Source of the DNA: Candidatus Methanophagales archaeon
GTDB lineage: Archaea; Halobacteriota; Syntropharchaeia; Alkanophagales; Methanospirareceae
Reading direction: 5' to 3'
NCBI GenBank assembly: GCA_025966525.1
Contig: JAPDIG010000007.1
Coordinates: 1-40,824, forward strand
DNA length: 40,824 nucleotides
This document shows positions 1,695 to 24,764 of this stretch, one piece after another. Every line of letters begins with the position of its first letter. Positions within the stretch are counted from its first letter, which is position 1. Made by a program: the position numbers and the translations under genes. A model generated the notes under the pieces. The model had not been told where the DNA came from. It did not search any database and was given only the letters and a program-made list of their open reading frames with translations.

Positions 1695-2995
1695 TAACCT
1701 CTCTTAATTCTTTCCATTCGTTCTTCTTTCTTCTCTTTTACCGTCATTCGTTTCTCCCTGAGCATTTGTTCTCCTTCGAAAAATAAGATTTTATTTGGTT
1801 CTAAATCTTTGGTAACCACCGTGCCTGCACCTATTATTGAATTTGACCCAATTCTTACACCCGGCATGATTGACGAATTGACTCCAACTTTGCAGTTGTT
1901 AGCCATTATGCAGCCTAATTTATCCAATTCTGTATCCACCAGTTCATCCTCCACTTTTATCGAAATATTCTTTTCATCCAATCTGAAATTGGCTGTCACA
2001 GCACCATAACCAAAAGAACACTCATTGCCAATTATGCTATCGCCGATATAATTCGTATGGAACCAGCAGTCATTCCCGATGTATGCGTGCTTGATTTCTG
2101 TGGAATAGCCAACGACACATCTGTCTCCGATGTGAGATCCACGAATCAGCGAGTTGTTCCCGATAACACAGTCTTTACCAATATATGCCGGTCCTTTTAT
2201 CACCACATTTTCAAAAATCTCTGCACCTGCTTCTATGATGACATTTCCCTCTATCTTTGCACTTTCCTGGATTTTTACACCATTTACAATCTGTTTATCT
2301 ATCGTATTCAAAAAATACTCCATCACATTAAAAATGTGCCAGGGATATTTAATTGCTGTCCAAAAACCATCGTATTCAACCACCCTGAAGTCAAAACCAT
2401 CCTTTATCATACGGTCCATCGTTCGCTCATAGACATCGTCTTGCTCACTTTCCGTTTCCTCTAAATATCTGATAAATTCATCTGAATTCCTGTGGAGATG
2501 AACCACGATATTAACCAAATTGCTGGGTTCTTTCCCCTCTCCCGGCTTTTCAACAATCTCTTTTATTTTTTCATTTTCAACAGTGAGGTATCCGCCGGGA
2601 AAGTATTTACATACCTTATAGCCAAGAATAGCCGATTCACCCTCTTTCTTCTTTAAAATCTCCTCATACGCAGAAGGTTCAAAAACATCATTTGGGTTCA
2701 CAATAAGGATTTCCTCTCCTCTGAGCAGGTCTTTCGCTGTGAGCACCGCATCAGCCATACCTTTCGGCGTTTTCTGTACGGCATATTCAGCATCTTCCCC
2801 GCAGAGCTCCTTTAATTTGTCAACATTTGAGGGGTTGCCAACGAAAACGAAATCTTTTTCTTTTAATCCCAGCCCTTTCAAATGATCCATATGATGTAAG
2901 ATTAACTCTTTTCCTATGAATTTGAGCAAAAATTTATCCTCCTCAAGGGGATACATCCGTTTTCCTATTCCGCCACATAAGAACAGTATTTTCAT
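1691..2995 (-). CDS. GlmU-like nucleotidylyltransferase / acetyltransferase (paralog 2), coupled to glmM
   Basis: This 434-residue protein has the same two-domain layout as the genes at 483 and 4744 but a divergent N-terminus: LCGGIGKRMYPLEEDK replaces the usual G-x-G-x-R...PLT...PK signature. The metal-site region reads NPNDVF instead of NGDT. A canonical EKP motif follows. The C-terminal hexapeptide repeats (about 245-410) keep FHTNYIGDSIIG. By eye this preserves both the catalytic His and the Tyr of the GlcN-1-P acetyltransferase, followed by TANFR. The last 30 residues are charged (KEKKEERMERIKR). Its ATG overlaps the TGA of glmM (ATGA), so translation is coupled. I infer that it supplies acetylation, and possibly uridylylation, after GlmM. 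Confidence 0.75.
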   Translation of the reverse strand: MKILFLCGGIGKRMYPLEEDKFLLKFIGKELILHHMDHLKGLGLKEKDFVFVGNPSNVDKLKELCGEDAEYAVQKTPKGMADAVLTAKDLLRGEEILIVNPNDVFEPSAYEEILKKKEGESAILGYKVCKYFPGGYLTVENEKIKEIVEKPGEGKEPSNLVNIVVHLHRNSDEFIRYLEETESEQDDVYERTMDRMIKDGFDFRVVEYDGFWTAIKYPWHIFNVMEYFLNTIDKQIVNGVKIQESAKIEGNVIIEAGAEIFENVVIKGPAYIGKDCVIGNNSLIRGSHIGDRCVVGYSTEIKHAYIGNDCWFHTNYIGDSIIGNECSFGYGAVTANFRLDEKNISIKVEDELVDTELDKLGCIMANNCKVGVNSSIMPGVRIGSNSIIGAGTVVTKDLEPNKILFFEGEQMLREKRMTVKEKKEERMERIKRGY

Positions 2996-4341
2996 GTTAA
3001 CTCCCGTTTAGCTTCATTTACAGCCTGAATAGCCATATCCATTATTTCTTTGAGTTCATCCCTGTCCTCGGACTCAGCGATTACCCTTATCAGCGGTTGA
3101 GTCCCACTGGCTCTTATTAAGACCCACGAGTCCTCAAAATCCAGTCTTAAACCATCCAATGAATTGGTGCGATGAGCAGGAAAAACGTCTAAATGCATAT
3201 GAACTCGTCCCAAGACTTCGTATTTTAGTTTATCGGCGACAGGAACTCCTTTTTTATCGAAATACAGAGTCGGCATTTCATTAATAAACGCACGGATCTC
3301 TTCGACATTCTCAATATTAGCCAATAAGTACATGGCAGCATAAATGCTATCTGGATAGTAGCCCATTTCTGGCATTATGTAGACGCCCACCTGTTCAACG
3401 CCTATCGAAGCTCCTTCCTCCTTTACCCTGTGACCCACGTATCCATCCCCAACTTTACCCCTTATCACCTCGCCGCCCAAATCCTCTATTGCATAATCGA
3501 ATAAACGACCGGTCTCCACTGTTGTTACCACTTTCTTTTTATTTGTTTCTTGTACCCTTAATCTCGAAATAAAAGAAATCGCCTCATTATAGCCAATAAA
3601 CCCTTTTTTATCACAGAAAACAACTCTGTCTGCATCGCCATCAAAACAGATTGCGAGATCAGCATTTTCTTTTCGTAGATAAGAAATTGTCTCTTTTAAT
3701 GTTTCTGCCGTTGGTTCGGGGCTTCTATTTGGGAACAATCCATCGGGTTCGTCATTTAATGGTAGAACATCTATGCCAGCTTTTTTAAAGACCATAGATG
3801 CATAATCCGCAGCGGCACCATTTCCGGGATCAACTACTACTTTGAAATACCTGTTAATTTCTACCCGTTTCAAAAGTTCGTCTGCATGTGCCTTCTTTGC
3901 ATTATAATCGTATCTTAGCGTGCCGATTTTATTCCATGTAGGCATCCTGTATTCATTCCACATTAATGCTTCTTCAATTATTTGTTCATCGTGCACGGTG
4001 TAAGCCATGCCATCACACCAGAGCTTTATTCCATTATATTCAGGAGGATTATGGGATGCTGTTATCAGCACTCCGGTATCGTAATTTTGATCTTTCGTTA
4101 AAAAGGCAAGCACTGGCGTAGGGACAATACCAAGATCAACGACATTTATATTACATGTTAATATACCGGATATAAGTGCGCTTTTTAAGAGGTCTTTCGT
4201 CACTCTGGTGTCTGTTGCTATGGCAATATTTGATTTCTCTGGAAGAGAGGAGGCAATAGCTTTCCCCAAGTTAAAGCAGAATTCGGGGGTTATTCTTTTA
4301 AAGACTTTACCTCTAATCCCGCTTGTTCCAAACAATCTCAT
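2992..4341 (-). CDS. glmM: Phosphoglucosamine mutase (GlmM/ManB family)
   Basis: This is an alpha-D-phosphohexomutase that interconverts GlcN-6-P and GlcN-1-P. It starts with MRLFGTSGIRG, has the phosphoserine loop TASHNP (Ser96), the metal loop DGDADR near residue 240 and the C-terminal phosphate-binding RASGTQP. Its 449 residues are the usual length. It is the first gene of a two-gene minus-strand unit with the GlmU-like gene at 1691 and is divergent from the small ORF at 4423. GlmS is encoded nearby at 5984, which favours glucosamine as substrate. Phosphomannomutase activity, common in archaeal relatives, cannot be excluded from sequence. Confidence 0.85.
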   Translation of the reverse strand: MRLFGTSGIRGKVFKRITPEFCFNLGKAIASSLPEKSNIAIATDTRVTKDLLKSALISGILTCNINVVDLGIVPTPVLAFLTKDQNYDTGVLITASHNPPEYNGIKLWCDGMAYTVHDEQIIEEALMWNEYRMPTWNKIGTLRYDYNAKKAHADELLKRVEINRYFKVVVDPGNGAAADYASMVFKKAGIDVLPLNDEPDGLFPNRSPEPTAETLKETISYLRKENADLAICFDGDADRVVFCDKKGFIGYNEAISFISRLRVQETNKKKVVTTVETGRLFDYAIEDLGGEVIRGKVGDGYVGHRVKEEGASIGVEQVGVYIMPEMGYYPDSIYAAMYLLANIENVEEIRAFINEMPTLYFDKKGVPVADKLKYEVLGRVHMHLDVFPAHRTNSLDGLRLDFEDSWVLIRASGTQPLIRVIAESEDRDELKEIMDMAIQAVNEAKRELT

Positions 4342-12344: not shown

Positions 12345-12863
12345 TTAAATAAAACACGGGCTAATGAAATCATTGTCTAAAGGTATGTATTTATCGCAAG
12401 CTTTTCTTAATGCAACAGAAGGAGCATCTTTAAAATATGCGTGTTCCACATGTTTACCCCTATCTTTCACGGCATTTACCGCTGCGGCGAAATCTCCATC
12501 GCCACTCACGAGAATTGCAGTATCATACGTGTCATCATAGGCGTATTTTAACATATCAACAGCAAGGAGAATATCAACACCCTTCTCGATAAAAGTATCT
12601 CCGCGAGGTTCAAGTCTTCCTAATTTAAGTTCGAGATAAGGAGTGCGTTCTAATAATGAAAAAAATTTTTGCTGCGATTTATATTTCTCTTCATCAATTT
12701 CTTTTTTGTGAGGGGCATTATAATAATAAATTCGGATAAGTTTACGATTCTCCCCGCAGAGTAAGGTAGCAAATTTATAGAAATCTACTCTTGTTCTTCC
12801 AAGATTAGCTTTAAGGCCATGATAAAAATTACTTCCGTCTATAAAAAGGGCTACCCTTTCCAT
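12345..12863 (-). CDS. NYN-domain (LabA/DUF88-like) putative ribonuclease
   Basis: The protein reads ERVALFIDGSNFYHG at the N-terminus and AILVSGDGDFAAAV near residue 125. These supply the paired acidic residues of the PIN-like NYN fold (D in FIDGSN, D in VDILLAVD, D in GDGDF). Related proteins are metal-dependent RNases or RNA-processing factors; the target is unknown. I prefer the ATG at 12863 (172 aa) over the track's earlier start, because the family begins with this motif and the extra ten residues do not fit. TTATAAT about 20 bases upstream suggests a leaderless or short-leader transcript. It stands alone. Confidence 0.75.
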   Translation of the reverse strand: MERVALFIDGSNFYHGLKANLGRTRVDFYKFATLLCGENRKLIRIYYYNAPHKKEIDEEKYKSQQKFFSLLERTPYLELKLGRLEPRGDTFIEKGVDILLAVDMLKYAYDDTYDTAILVSGDGDFAAAVNAVKDRGKHVEHAYFKDAPSVALRKACDKYIPLDNDFISPCFI

Positions 12864-13022
12864 GGTTATCGCTATATCATTATAACACAACAATGAATAG
12901 AAATGAGAGGTTACTTCGTTTGGTAACCCCTCAGTGATTATATACCTGCCGTTGGTGCGTATTCAATGGCAGGGAGGATATTAGTTAATAATTAAACTTA
13001 GGTATATATATTATTTTCGATT

Positions 13023-21512: not shown

Positions 21513-21833
21513 ATGGTAGAAGAAAAACCGGGTGAATTGAAACAGTTGTTTGTTTACGAACATGATGCAAGTCGGCTGGAACTTTTCATTAGAATCGTTT
21601 ATGGATGGGTTTGCATAGGTATAGTAGTAGCAGTGTATGGCTTCATTGCAGAGATATGCATGCTTATTCAGTGGTTTGTGATATTGATACTTGGACGTAG
21701 AAGCGAAGGGTTAAGCAACTTCATTAAGGGATATCTCGAATATCTTGTGCACGTGATGAGCTATTATTACTTTATGACTGACGATAGACCCGGAATATTG
21801 CCAAAGAGGGTTGAAATATACGAGAAAGAGTGA
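21513..21833 (+). CDS. Small membrane protein, DUF4389-like
   Basis: This 106-residue protein has a soluble start, a long hydrophobic stretch (about 28-60: IVYGWVCIGIVVAVYGF, CMLIQWFVILILG) and an amphipathic end (YLEYLVHVMSYYYFMTDDRPG). The layout and the aromatic C-terminal pattern resemble DUF4389 membrane proteins; function is unknown. The track starts at TTG 21507, but the ATG at 21513 is preceded by GGGGGTGA at good spacing. It ends just before htpX, probably in one transcript. Confidence 0.6.
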   Translation: MVEEKPGELKQLFVYEHDASRLELFIRIVYGWVCIGIVVAVYGFIAEICMLIQWFVILILGRRSEGLSNFIKGYLEYLVHVMSYYYFMTDDRPGILPKRVEIYEKE

Positions 21834-21937
21834 AGGAAGGGTTCACCAATGAACCGGTGAATATCCGTAATAACCTTTTTCTCTTTTCTTCTCTTTTTTA
21901 TATGTTCATATCCAAGAATTGTATATATAGAACTAAA

Positions 21938-22918
21938 ATGAGAACAGCGTGGCTAAAGATAAGGATGGGGCTATGTGTATTGCTCCTGTTTGCAGTGATA
22001 TATGCGCTATTGGTCGTTATAGCTACTTTTGTTGGTGCGGGGACGCCGCTAATTTATGCCTTACTCGCCGTTGTCGTGGTGGCTATTCAGTTCTTTATAG
22101 GTCCGAAGATAGTGGAAAAGACGATGCGTGTTCGGTATGTTTCAGAACGCGAGCAGCCGGAATTGCACCGAATAGTGAGCGAATTAGCGATGAAGGCAGG
22201 GATACCAAAGCCAAGGGTAGGGATTTCAGAGATACCAATACCAAACGCTTTCGCGTTTGGCACCTCTAAAAGGACAGCGCGGGTTTGCATCACGAGGCGA
22301 TTGATGGAGATGTTGAAAAGGGATGAGATAGAAGCAGTTTTGGGGCATGAATTATCGCACATAAAACATCGAGATATGGCGGTTATAACGGCGTTGAGCG
22401 TGATACCGATGATATGCTACTTTATCTATTTCAGCTTCTTCTGGTCCGGCATCTTTGGCGGCGGCGGTAGAAATAGAGAAGGGGCGTTACCAATGATGGC
22501 TATTGCTCTTATTGCCTTCATTGTATATTTCATAAGCAACCTTATTGTACTTTATGCGTCTCGTATAAGAGAATATTATGCAGACGCGGGAAGTGCAGAA
22601 CTCACGAGAAGACCGCATGCACTTGCTTCTGCACTGTATAAAATGATTTATGGTAGTGCAGCAGGTGTGAAGCAGGAAAAGGTAAAAAAGGAAATGGGGA
22701 GCATGCGCGCTTTTTTTGCTACTGACCCTGTAACTGCGAGAAGGGATTTGAGGGATTTGAGTGCAGCAGACTTGAATAGGGATGGAAAGATAGATGAGTA
22801 TGAGTTAAGGGCATTCGCAGAGAGGGCGAGAGTAACGCGTGCTGAAAGACTGATGGAACTTTTTTCCACGCACCCTAATCCGGTGAGCAGGGTTAAGAGG
22901 TTGGGGACGTATCTTTAA
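21938..22918 (+). CDS. htpX: HtpX-like membrane metalloprotease with an EF-hand insert
   Basis: HtpX is a zinc protease that degrades misfolded membrane proteins. Two N-terminal membrane spans (about 12-55) are followed by GHELSHIKH (His137, Glu138, His141). Two more spans follow, then REYYADAGSAEL with the third ligand Glu212. Residues 278-289 read DLNRDGKIDEYE, a textbook EF-hand calcium loop, in the C-terminal soluble part. I take the ATG at 21938 (326 aa). The track's start 108 bases earlier adds an unlikely extension; 21965 is also possible. TTTTTTATATG near 21894 may be its promoter. Confidence 0.9.
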   Translation: MRTAWLKIRMGLCVLLLFAVIYALLVVIATFVGAGTPLIYALLAVVVVAIQFFIGPKIVEKTMRVRYVSEREQPELHRIVSELAMKAGIPKPRVGISEIPIPNAFAFGTSKRTARVCITRRLMEMLKRDEIEAVLGHELSHIKHRDMAVITALSVIPMICYFIYFSFFWSGIFGGGGRNREGALPMMAIALIAFIVYFISNLIVLYASRIREYYADAGSAELTRRPHALASALYKMIYGSAAGVKQEKVKKEMGSMRAFFATDPVTARRDLRDLSAADLNRDGKIDEYELRAFAERARVTRAERLMELFSTHPNPVSRVKRLGTYL

Positions 22919-23020
22919 GGTGCGATAAATTTTATTCACTCATGAAGCAGTAAAATTTTAAACTCTAAGCATCAAATAGATAGGAACTACAAAAATTTAC
23001 GATTTTAAAGGAGATAAAAC

Positions 23021-24154
23021 ATGCTCGAATACGTGATTGTAGGTTTGCTCATTGCAATCCTGCTTGGATTGGCTTTTTTGGGCATTTCGCTGAAGAAGAG
23101 AAAAGAAGCGATAGAGATAGACTCAACAAAGTTAAGTGAAGACATCTCAGCGAAAATAAGGGAAGATGTTTCCAAAGCGGTTCGCGAGACAATAAGCGAA
23201 GTGTCGGAACGTGTGGGCGGTGTTTCAAGCACTCTGAAGTCGGTTGTAGAATTGTTTGAAAAAATAAGAAGAGAACTTCCAAAGGATGTTACAGAGCCAG
23301 TAAACGAGGTCTTGGACCGTGCACTGCGGGATTTAAGGGAATTTGATGGGAATATAGCGGAGATGAGCAATGAATTGCCAAACAAGGTTTTGAAAAGCAT
23401 ACAAACGAGCATTAACGTTAGAAAAGGAAAAGCAGGGGAGCTTGCCACTCTTATGTCCTTCTTGGGCGAATATAAAAGAATTATTCCTTTAGGGCAGCCT
23501 ATTGATTTTATTGGGGTTAGCGATGACTACATTGACTTTATAGAAGTGAAAACAGGGACAGCAGGATTATCACCGATGGAGAGAGAAATAAAGGAAATAA
23601 TAGAGAAAGGAAAGGTGAGATTTATTTTGAGGAAGGAAGATGTGGAAATTATTATGCCGGAGGAAATGGAAGCGCGGAAGTTTAAAACTGAGCATGAGGA
23701 GGAGGTTAAGGGTACAGAATCAGTTATTTTTAAATTGGGTGAATCAAAAGACCCCAAAGTTATTCCACGGCTGATAGAATTCACAAAAAGTAAAGATGGA
23801 AACGAGAGAAGATTATCAGCCTCTGCTCTCGGGAAACTTTCGGTTTTCAAGTCCCAAATATCAGAGGCAGTTCCACCCCTCATAAAATTGCTTGAGGATG
23901 AAAATCCGCAGGTAAGGCAATATTCAGCAAAAGCATTGGGAAAAATAGGGAGAAGGGATGTAATACCTTACCTTAAACAACTCATGAACGACAAAAAAGA
24001 GTATGTGAGGTCAGCGGCAAAATTGGCTATTAGCCAAATAGAAGGCGAAGTTGGGGAATCAAGGGGAGAGATTTACGTATGTCTAAATTGTGGCGAGCCC
24101 ATTAGTGGTAAGTTTGATGTATGTCCATATTGCGGTGACCCATTGATAAAGTAA
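23021..24154 (+). CDS. Membrane-anchored Holliday-resolvase-like nuclease fused to HEAT repeats and zinc ribbon
   Basis: Domains in order: an N-terminal membrane span (3-23); a coiled-coil-like helical stretch (30-130); a nuclease domain (about 133-205) with Glu140 in GKAGELA, Asp162 in PIDFIGV and the ExK of FIEVKTG (175-177); HEAT-like repeats (about 235-345, such as VPPLIKLLEDENPQVRQYSAKALGKIG); and a C-terminal zinc ribbon (Cys354/357/368/371). The nuclease part resembles the archaeal Hjc-related endonuclease family (PD-(D/E)xK). A nuclease on the membrane with a protein-interaction module is unusual; the target is unknown. AAAGGAGAT precedes the ATG. It follows htpX by 102 bases. Confidence 0.8.
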   Translation: MLEYVIVGLLIAILLGLAFLGISLKKRKEAIEIDSTKLSEDISAKIREDVSKAVRETISEVSERVGGVSSTLKSVVELFEKIRRELPKDVTEPVNEVLDRALRDLREFDGNIAEMSNELPNKVLKSIQTSINVRKGKAGELATLMSFLGEYKRIIPLGQPIDFIGVSDDYIDFIEVKTGTAGLSPMEREIKEIIEKGKVRFILRKEDVEIIMPEEMEARKFKTEHEEEVKGTESVIFKLGESKDPKVIPRLIEFTKSKDGNERRLSASALGKLSVFKSQISEAVPPLIKLLEDENPQVRQYSAKALGKIGRRDVIPYLKQLMNDKKEYVRSAAKLAISQIEGEVGESRGEIYVCLNCGEPISGKFDVCPYCGDPLIK

Positions 24155-24193: not shown

Positions 24194-24724
24194 CTACTTC
24201 ACACCCTCCACCGCCATCTTTATCATCTCCACTATATACTTCTCACTCCACCTCGAAGAGTTTATCACCAGGTCATAAATAGAAAGGTCATCTAAATTTA
24301 TGCCATAATATCTCTTATACCGCGTATCCTCTGAACGTTCTCTATGTTTCATAGCAGAAAGAGCTTCTTCGTAGGTTATTCCTTCACGAGCTGCAATTCT
24401 CCTCGCCCTTATTTCCGATGGAGCCTTCAACCATATTTTTAAATCCGCAGCGGGAACGAAGAATCCGGATAACCTACCTTCTACAATGACATTCTCCCGT
24501 TTCATTGCCTCTTCTCCCTGTCTTGCATCTACCCGACTATCGAAATCATCGTTATTTTCTGCTATTTTATTAAAATGCTCTAACTGCAATTTCTTCTCCT
24601 TCGCTATTTGTCGAAACATCTCGCCAGCGGAAATTAGTTCTACGGACAAATCCTTAGATAGCAACTTCGCCACTGTTGTTGTTCCACTGCCTGGAAGACC
24701 GCTTATTGTAATTCGCATCTGCAT
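24194..24724 (-). CDS. cmk: Cytidylate kinase, archaeal type
   Basis: This enzyme phosphorylates CMP/dCMP. The P-loop GLPGSGTTT is at the N-terminus, VIVEGRLSGFF near residue 85 is the CMP-site region, and RRIAAREG forms the lid. The length of about 176 residues matches archaeal Cmk. Three ATGs are close together. AAGGG is best spaced for 24724 (MQMRIT), while 24730 and 24718 are alternatives. It is the last gene of a minus-strand run after rtcB, and is convergent with the nuclease-HEAT gene. Confidence 0.9.
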   Translation of the reverse strand: MQMRITISGLPGSGTTTVAKLLSKDLSVELISAGEMFRQIAKEKKLQLEHFNKIAENNDDFDSRVDARQGEEAMKRENVIVEGRLSGFFVPAADLKIWLKAPSEIRARRIAAREGITYEEALSAMKHRERSEDTRYKRYYGINLDDLSIYDLVINSSRWSEKYIVEMIKMAVEGVK

Positions 24725-24764
24725 AAACATCCCTTAAAAAAGAAAGTTTTTAAAAATATTAGCT

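Follow-up and report, generated by a model that had tools for sequence, protein, structure and literature searches.

A predicted membrane-tethered COG4741/PF10107 nuclease from a methane-oxidising archaeon carries a HEAT tail like those of RecQ helicases

Nucleases of the COG4741/PF10107 family, which occurs in many archaea and some bacteria, were described in 2005 as tethered enzymes consisting of an N-terminal membrane helix, a helical linker and a minimal cytosolic PD-(D/E)xK core with the motif E-(V/I)D-E(V/I)K, and were placed with the YraN/Hjc-like nucleases (PMC1189080). Our literature search found neither an assay of a COG4741/PF10107 nuclease nor a role assigned to one. Hjc (PF01870) and YraN belong to the same superfamily and, to our knowledge, have no membrane anchor and no HEAT, HRDC or zinc tail. 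RmuC (PF02646) likewise joins a membrane helix, a long helical region and a PD-(D/E)xK core in one chain (PMC1189080), but belongs to another nuclease subfamily and is without a HEAT or zinc tail. A further architecture is known from the PADLOC model HEAT_CxxC_PDDEXK (PDLC01150), on which we found nothing in the literature; judged by its name it unites HEAT, CxxC and PD-DExK in a single protein, with the HEAT part placed first.

We analysed a 40,824-nt stretch of archaeal DNA (the window) in which a sequence-only reading had picked out one gene, at 23021-24154 (+), as combining a membrane anchor, a nuclease, HEAT repeats and a zinc ribbon in one chain. The window belongs to a Methanophagales (ANME-1) genome, its closest named relative being a Methanophagales MAG. 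The gene is a single intact open reading frame for 377 amino acids, with an ATG start and a Shine-Dalgarno-like GGAG (23010-23013, +) 8 nt 5' of it, and that reading of its make-up holds: the order is membrane helix, helical stalk, PD-(D/E)xK nuclease, HEAT repeats, zinc ribbon, all on the forward strand. The transmembrane helix (residues ~4-24, 23030-23092) coincides with the 19-residue hydropathy maximum of 2.8 at residues 5-23, hydropathy exceeds 1.6 only in windows starting at residues 1-9, and the helix is modelled at pLDDT 92-95. It is followed by KKRK, so that by the positive-inside rule the C-terminus, and with it the rest of the protein, is predicted to lie in the cytosol. The stalk (residues 30-120, 23108-23380) had been called a coiled coil, a term that is only loosely right: the region is strongly amphipathic and helical, but at a hendecad-like period of 3.6-3.7 residues (0/5000 shuffles) and without the 3.5-residue coiled-coil period. 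Behind the nuclease, the HEAT repeats (residues ~236-345, 23726-24055) match HEAT_2 at E 5.5e-19 and, among solved structures, designed alphaReps. The zinc ribbon (residues 350-377, 24068-24151) has an intact CxxC-x10-CxxC pattern (C354/C357/C368/C371) and weak Pfam matches, the best at E 0.001, below cut-off.

The nuclease core (residues 116-212, 23366-23656) matches PF10107 (Endonuc_Holl) with 34.3 bits against a curated cut-off of 23.8 (E 2.6e-8, profile positions 69-155 of 159). Across 28 PF10107 proteins of archaeal genomes, E140, G158, P160, D162 and K177 never vary and E175 hardly does, which bears out the earlier remark that all PD-(D/E)xK residues appear present; the catalytic codons are E140 at 23438-23440, D162 at 23504-23506, E175 at 23543-23545 and K177 at 23549-23551 (+). 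An alignment of the core only, with 42 sequences, retains one G, the E, then G, P, D and K as invariant positions. Structure prediction, named beforehand as the test of a nuclease core, gave helix-strand-strand-strand-helix, the strands and final helix having pLDDT 85-94; the core of the superfamily is alpha-beta-beta-beta-alpha-beta. The best Foldseek matches of this core, VRR_NUC 4qbo (E 1.2) and Hjc 4tkd (E 8.3), are both non-significant, so support for the PD-(D/E)xK fold comes from the motif, the profile and the COG4741 assignment in the literature. A nuclease profile search of solved structures brought no credible match, and neither the Hjc profile PF01870 nor the RmuC profile PF02646 appeared among the 25 best of 33 Pfam families at E up to 1. 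We are highly confident that the protein is both a PF10107 member and laid out as a membrane-anchored cytosolic enzyme. Its membrane-plus-nuclease half is not new; it is a divergent member of the known layout, distinguished from other members by a longer amphipathic stalk and a shorter loop before the PxD motif. Of the domain mix, which had been thought odd, the first half follows the COG4741/PF10107 plan (PMC1189080), and what is new is the HEAT tail, in that RecQ-type tails are shared with a COG4741 nuclease.

PF10107 is present in 53 of 295 genomes of the phylum, but in only 8 of 58 of the class; Methanosarcina acetivorans, taken as a control, also has a PF10107 match. Four genomes were found to hold the subfamily to which the 377-aa protein belongs, as judged by matches over the N-terminal half: that of the protein itself (G000), G042, G046 and G019. 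Only G000 and G042 have the full HEAT and zinc architecture, at one site, and among the COG4741/PF10107 members seen no others have such a tail; all other PF10107 frames listed are of 315 codons or fewer. The two proteins are 377 aa each and 90% identical, all four zinc-ribbon cysteines are kept, and dN/dS between them is 0.20 overall and 0.13-0.29 in every domain (HEAT 0.29), with 0.46 in the linker. Because the ortholog has the same architecture, this identity and low dN/dS, 23021-24154 is, on comparative grounds, a real gene under purifying selection. It lies between an HtpX-like M48 membrane peptidase gene (21830-22918, +) and, by sequence and synteny, a cytidylate kinase-like gene (cmk; 24194-24730, -), which form the left and right edges of the occupied site. 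In ~10 relatives, among them each of the three further genomes from its genus, HtpX and cmk adjoin without the nuclease. The nuclease gene has thus either entered a site that is conserved in other respects or been lost from it. A search of the gene edges for insertion scars found no target duplication and no long or flanking repeat. Elsewhere in the window, at 12345-12893 (-), there is an NYN/LabA-like nuclease gene that matches PADLOC HEC-09 (E 2.9e-21) and NYN (1e-13).

The main clue to function could not be seen in the window itself, and lies in HEAT and HRDC modules that this nuclease subfamily has in common with RecQ. The HEAT module is 66-67% identical to the HEAT tails that RecQ helicases carry in G046 and G027, both related ANME-1 genomes; there a helicase core takes the place of the membrane nuclease and the zinc ribbon after the HEAT repeats is absent. 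Other HEAT domains listed reach at most ~47% identity to it (a degraded RecQ-HEAT copy in G028 left out), and a tree built from 28 HEAT domains unites both nuclease HEATs with both RecQ HEATs in a clade supported at 99/97. In G046 (L071 7311-12348) the gene order is SepF, ZPR1, nuclease, HRDC and RecQ with its HEAT tail, so that the nuclease stands directly upstream of RecQ with an HRDC between them. The G019 nuclease is fused to an HRDC, the only one found in that genome, where the best match to RecQ, a frame of 569 codons, has no room for an HRDC; in the class, 39 of 46 strong HRDC matches fall in RecQ-sized frames. In G009, RecQ is preceded on its own strand, at a distance of ~55 nt, by a short, degraded piece of nuclease stalk. 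Counting against the link, this remnant and the intact case of G046 are the only adjacencies found, and in G000 itself RecQ lies on a different contig and has retained an HRDC. Every tail found on the subfamily is a module also present on RecQ, and the HRDC and HEAT tails are mutually unrelated. Our literature search found nothing on ANME RecQ-nuclease links.

The simplest history would be an ancestral nuclease-HRDC gene beside RecQ-HEAT, in which a later deletion within the nuclease-HRDC-RecQ-HEAT cluster gave the nuclease the HEAT tail of its neighbour. A RecQ-HEAT pseudogene in G028 (L156 about 2700-3700; G028:C21:128715-129666) carries frameshifts and an internal deletion joining its helicase and HEAT parts, so deletions of this kind do occur. 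Direct descent of the nuclease-linked HRDCs from the RecQ HRDC is not borne out by the HRDC tree, which groups those HRDCs together only weakly (74/89), on very long branches. At L071:8207-9274 of G046 the nuclease and HRDC share one frame with a single TAG between them, which may mean that the gene is split, that a nonsense change arose recently or that the stop is read through. The RecQ-HEAT frame of G027 (L074:1308-2717) runs on into an RNase H-like domain, and an RNase HI-like gene is found directly 3' of RecQ in several relatives.

Other PF10107 genes provide a wider context. A HEAT gene stands directly upstream on the same strand at 6 of 50 PF10107 loci (genera g30 and g80 of family f16, identity down to 61%). 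The 24 cmk loci taken from other genomes as controls have none nearby. The six loci are related and count as one or two events. HEAT-repeat genes upstream of ordinary PF10107 nucleases in this other archaeal family include L063:2065-2589 and L060:802-1383. There are also single cases of NurA and HerA directly upstream of a PF10107 gene (G062) and of a DNA ligase upstream of one with Hjc nearby (G263), and an OB-fold is fused to the nuclease in G045 and G023. Most PF10107 loci have no repair gene nearby. Taken together, these contexts point, short of proof, to DNA over RNA, and to recombination or repair over defence. A general RecQ neighbourhood of ordinary PF10107 genes was looked for and not found, the helicase at L110 being of DeaD type and those at L115 and L077 being weak SF2 matches. 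ANME-1 genomes hold a second PF10107 subfamily with a C-terminal OB-fold (L076:6585-7469 and L077:6173-7057), and in its L077 copy a D replaces the E of the ExK motif.

In our best reading, the protein is a predicted DNA nuclease that is tethered to the membrane, is functionally linked to RecQ and bears one of several exchangeable tails that would bind DNA or a partner. To the proposal in its specific form, a nuclease tethered on the inner side of the membrane, with a HEAT/HRDC-type tail and predicted activity in DNA processing linked to RecQ, we give a probability of about 0.42. The N-terminal helix would anchor the protein with the remainder in the cytosol, the amphipathic stalk would space or multimerise the nuclease, and the putative metal-dependent core would cut DNA. 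The HEAT/zinc tail, like the HRDC of sister proteins and the OB-fold of others, may bind DNA or a partner also used by the helicase. The most likely task would be to work, at the membrane or close to it, on DNA unwound by RecQ or on further recombination intermediates that are branched or single-stranded, trimming or resolving them. Among the roles suggested by the sequence-only reading, chromosome handling is thus the best supported. A bolder version has COG4741 and RecQ acting as a tethered nuclease-helicase unit with interchangeable HRDC/HEAT tails, joining unwinding and cutting at the membrane, for example in end resection or in junction resolution during chromosome segregation; this we regard as rather unlikely.

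The main rival holds that this is an ordinary COG4741 nuclease, serving for example general membrane-proximal DNA turnover, whose HEAT/zinc tail was acquired accidentally from the RecQ gene next to it and does no more than bind proteins generically or lend stability. HEAT is a common protein-binding module and may have been captured without any shared function, and PF10107 is widespread without any tail while the HEAT-tailed form was found in just two genomes, at a single site. The linker and HEAT also have the highest dN/dS of all parts, and it would fit a stray capture that no relationship exists between the HRDC and HEAT tails. However, the dN/dS of HEAT is still far under 1, the tails on this subfamily are all modules that RecQ carries, and a HEAT gene is paired with PF10107 in another archaeal family too. 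We consider such a stray tail somewhat unlikely.

Surveillance or uptake, speculated for COG4741 in 2005, would have the nuclease cut foreign DNA at the membrane as it comes in, whether from phage or from the environment. An anchored cytosolic nuclease would suit that task, as would the patchy distribution and a site between HtpX and cmk that is occupied in some genomes and empty in others, and PADLOC does hold a candidate defence protein with HEAT, CxxC and PD-DExK. The 377-aa protein matches that model only over profile positions 14-139 of 288, the HEAT/CxxC half, with the nuclease part unmatched, and RecQ-HEAT tails match almost equally well, so HEAT repeats alone explain the match and we rejected the identity. 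PADLOC gives no match at all for ordinary PF10107 proteins or for the sister nuclease without a tail. The neighbourhood of the gene, which the sequence-only reading had proposed to survey for defence genes, consists of housekeeping genes, which speaks against such a setting. No relative of the protein was found in the viral contigs searched, which also speaks against a viral origin of the nuclease. Surveillance or uptake is therefore improbable, and the defence role raised earlier is little supported. PD-(D/E)xK cores are also capable of effector roles, and a wide range of ligands is bound by zinc ribbons as well as by HEAT repeats; the protein might on that basis be a membrane nuclease that acts on RNA or is triggered by a signal, with its zinc ribbon and HEAT repeats doing the sensing. 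The HRDC and OB-fold tails and the RecQ, NurA-HerA, ligase and Hjc neighbourhoods point instead to DNA, and we hold this last alternative to be very improbable.

The RecQ-linked reading concerns a methane-oxidising archaeon with a predicted membrane-bound DNA-cutting enzyme, from a known but unstudied family, whose tail resembles those of RecQ helicases from related genomes and offers a clue that the two may work together. The fusions and neighbourhoods involving RecQ modules (HEAT, HRDC), together with the HEAT, NurA-HerA and ligase/Hjc neighbours, would provide a first concrete partner for COG4741/PF10107. If true, the link to RecQ would put recombination-type DNA cutting at the archaeal membrane.
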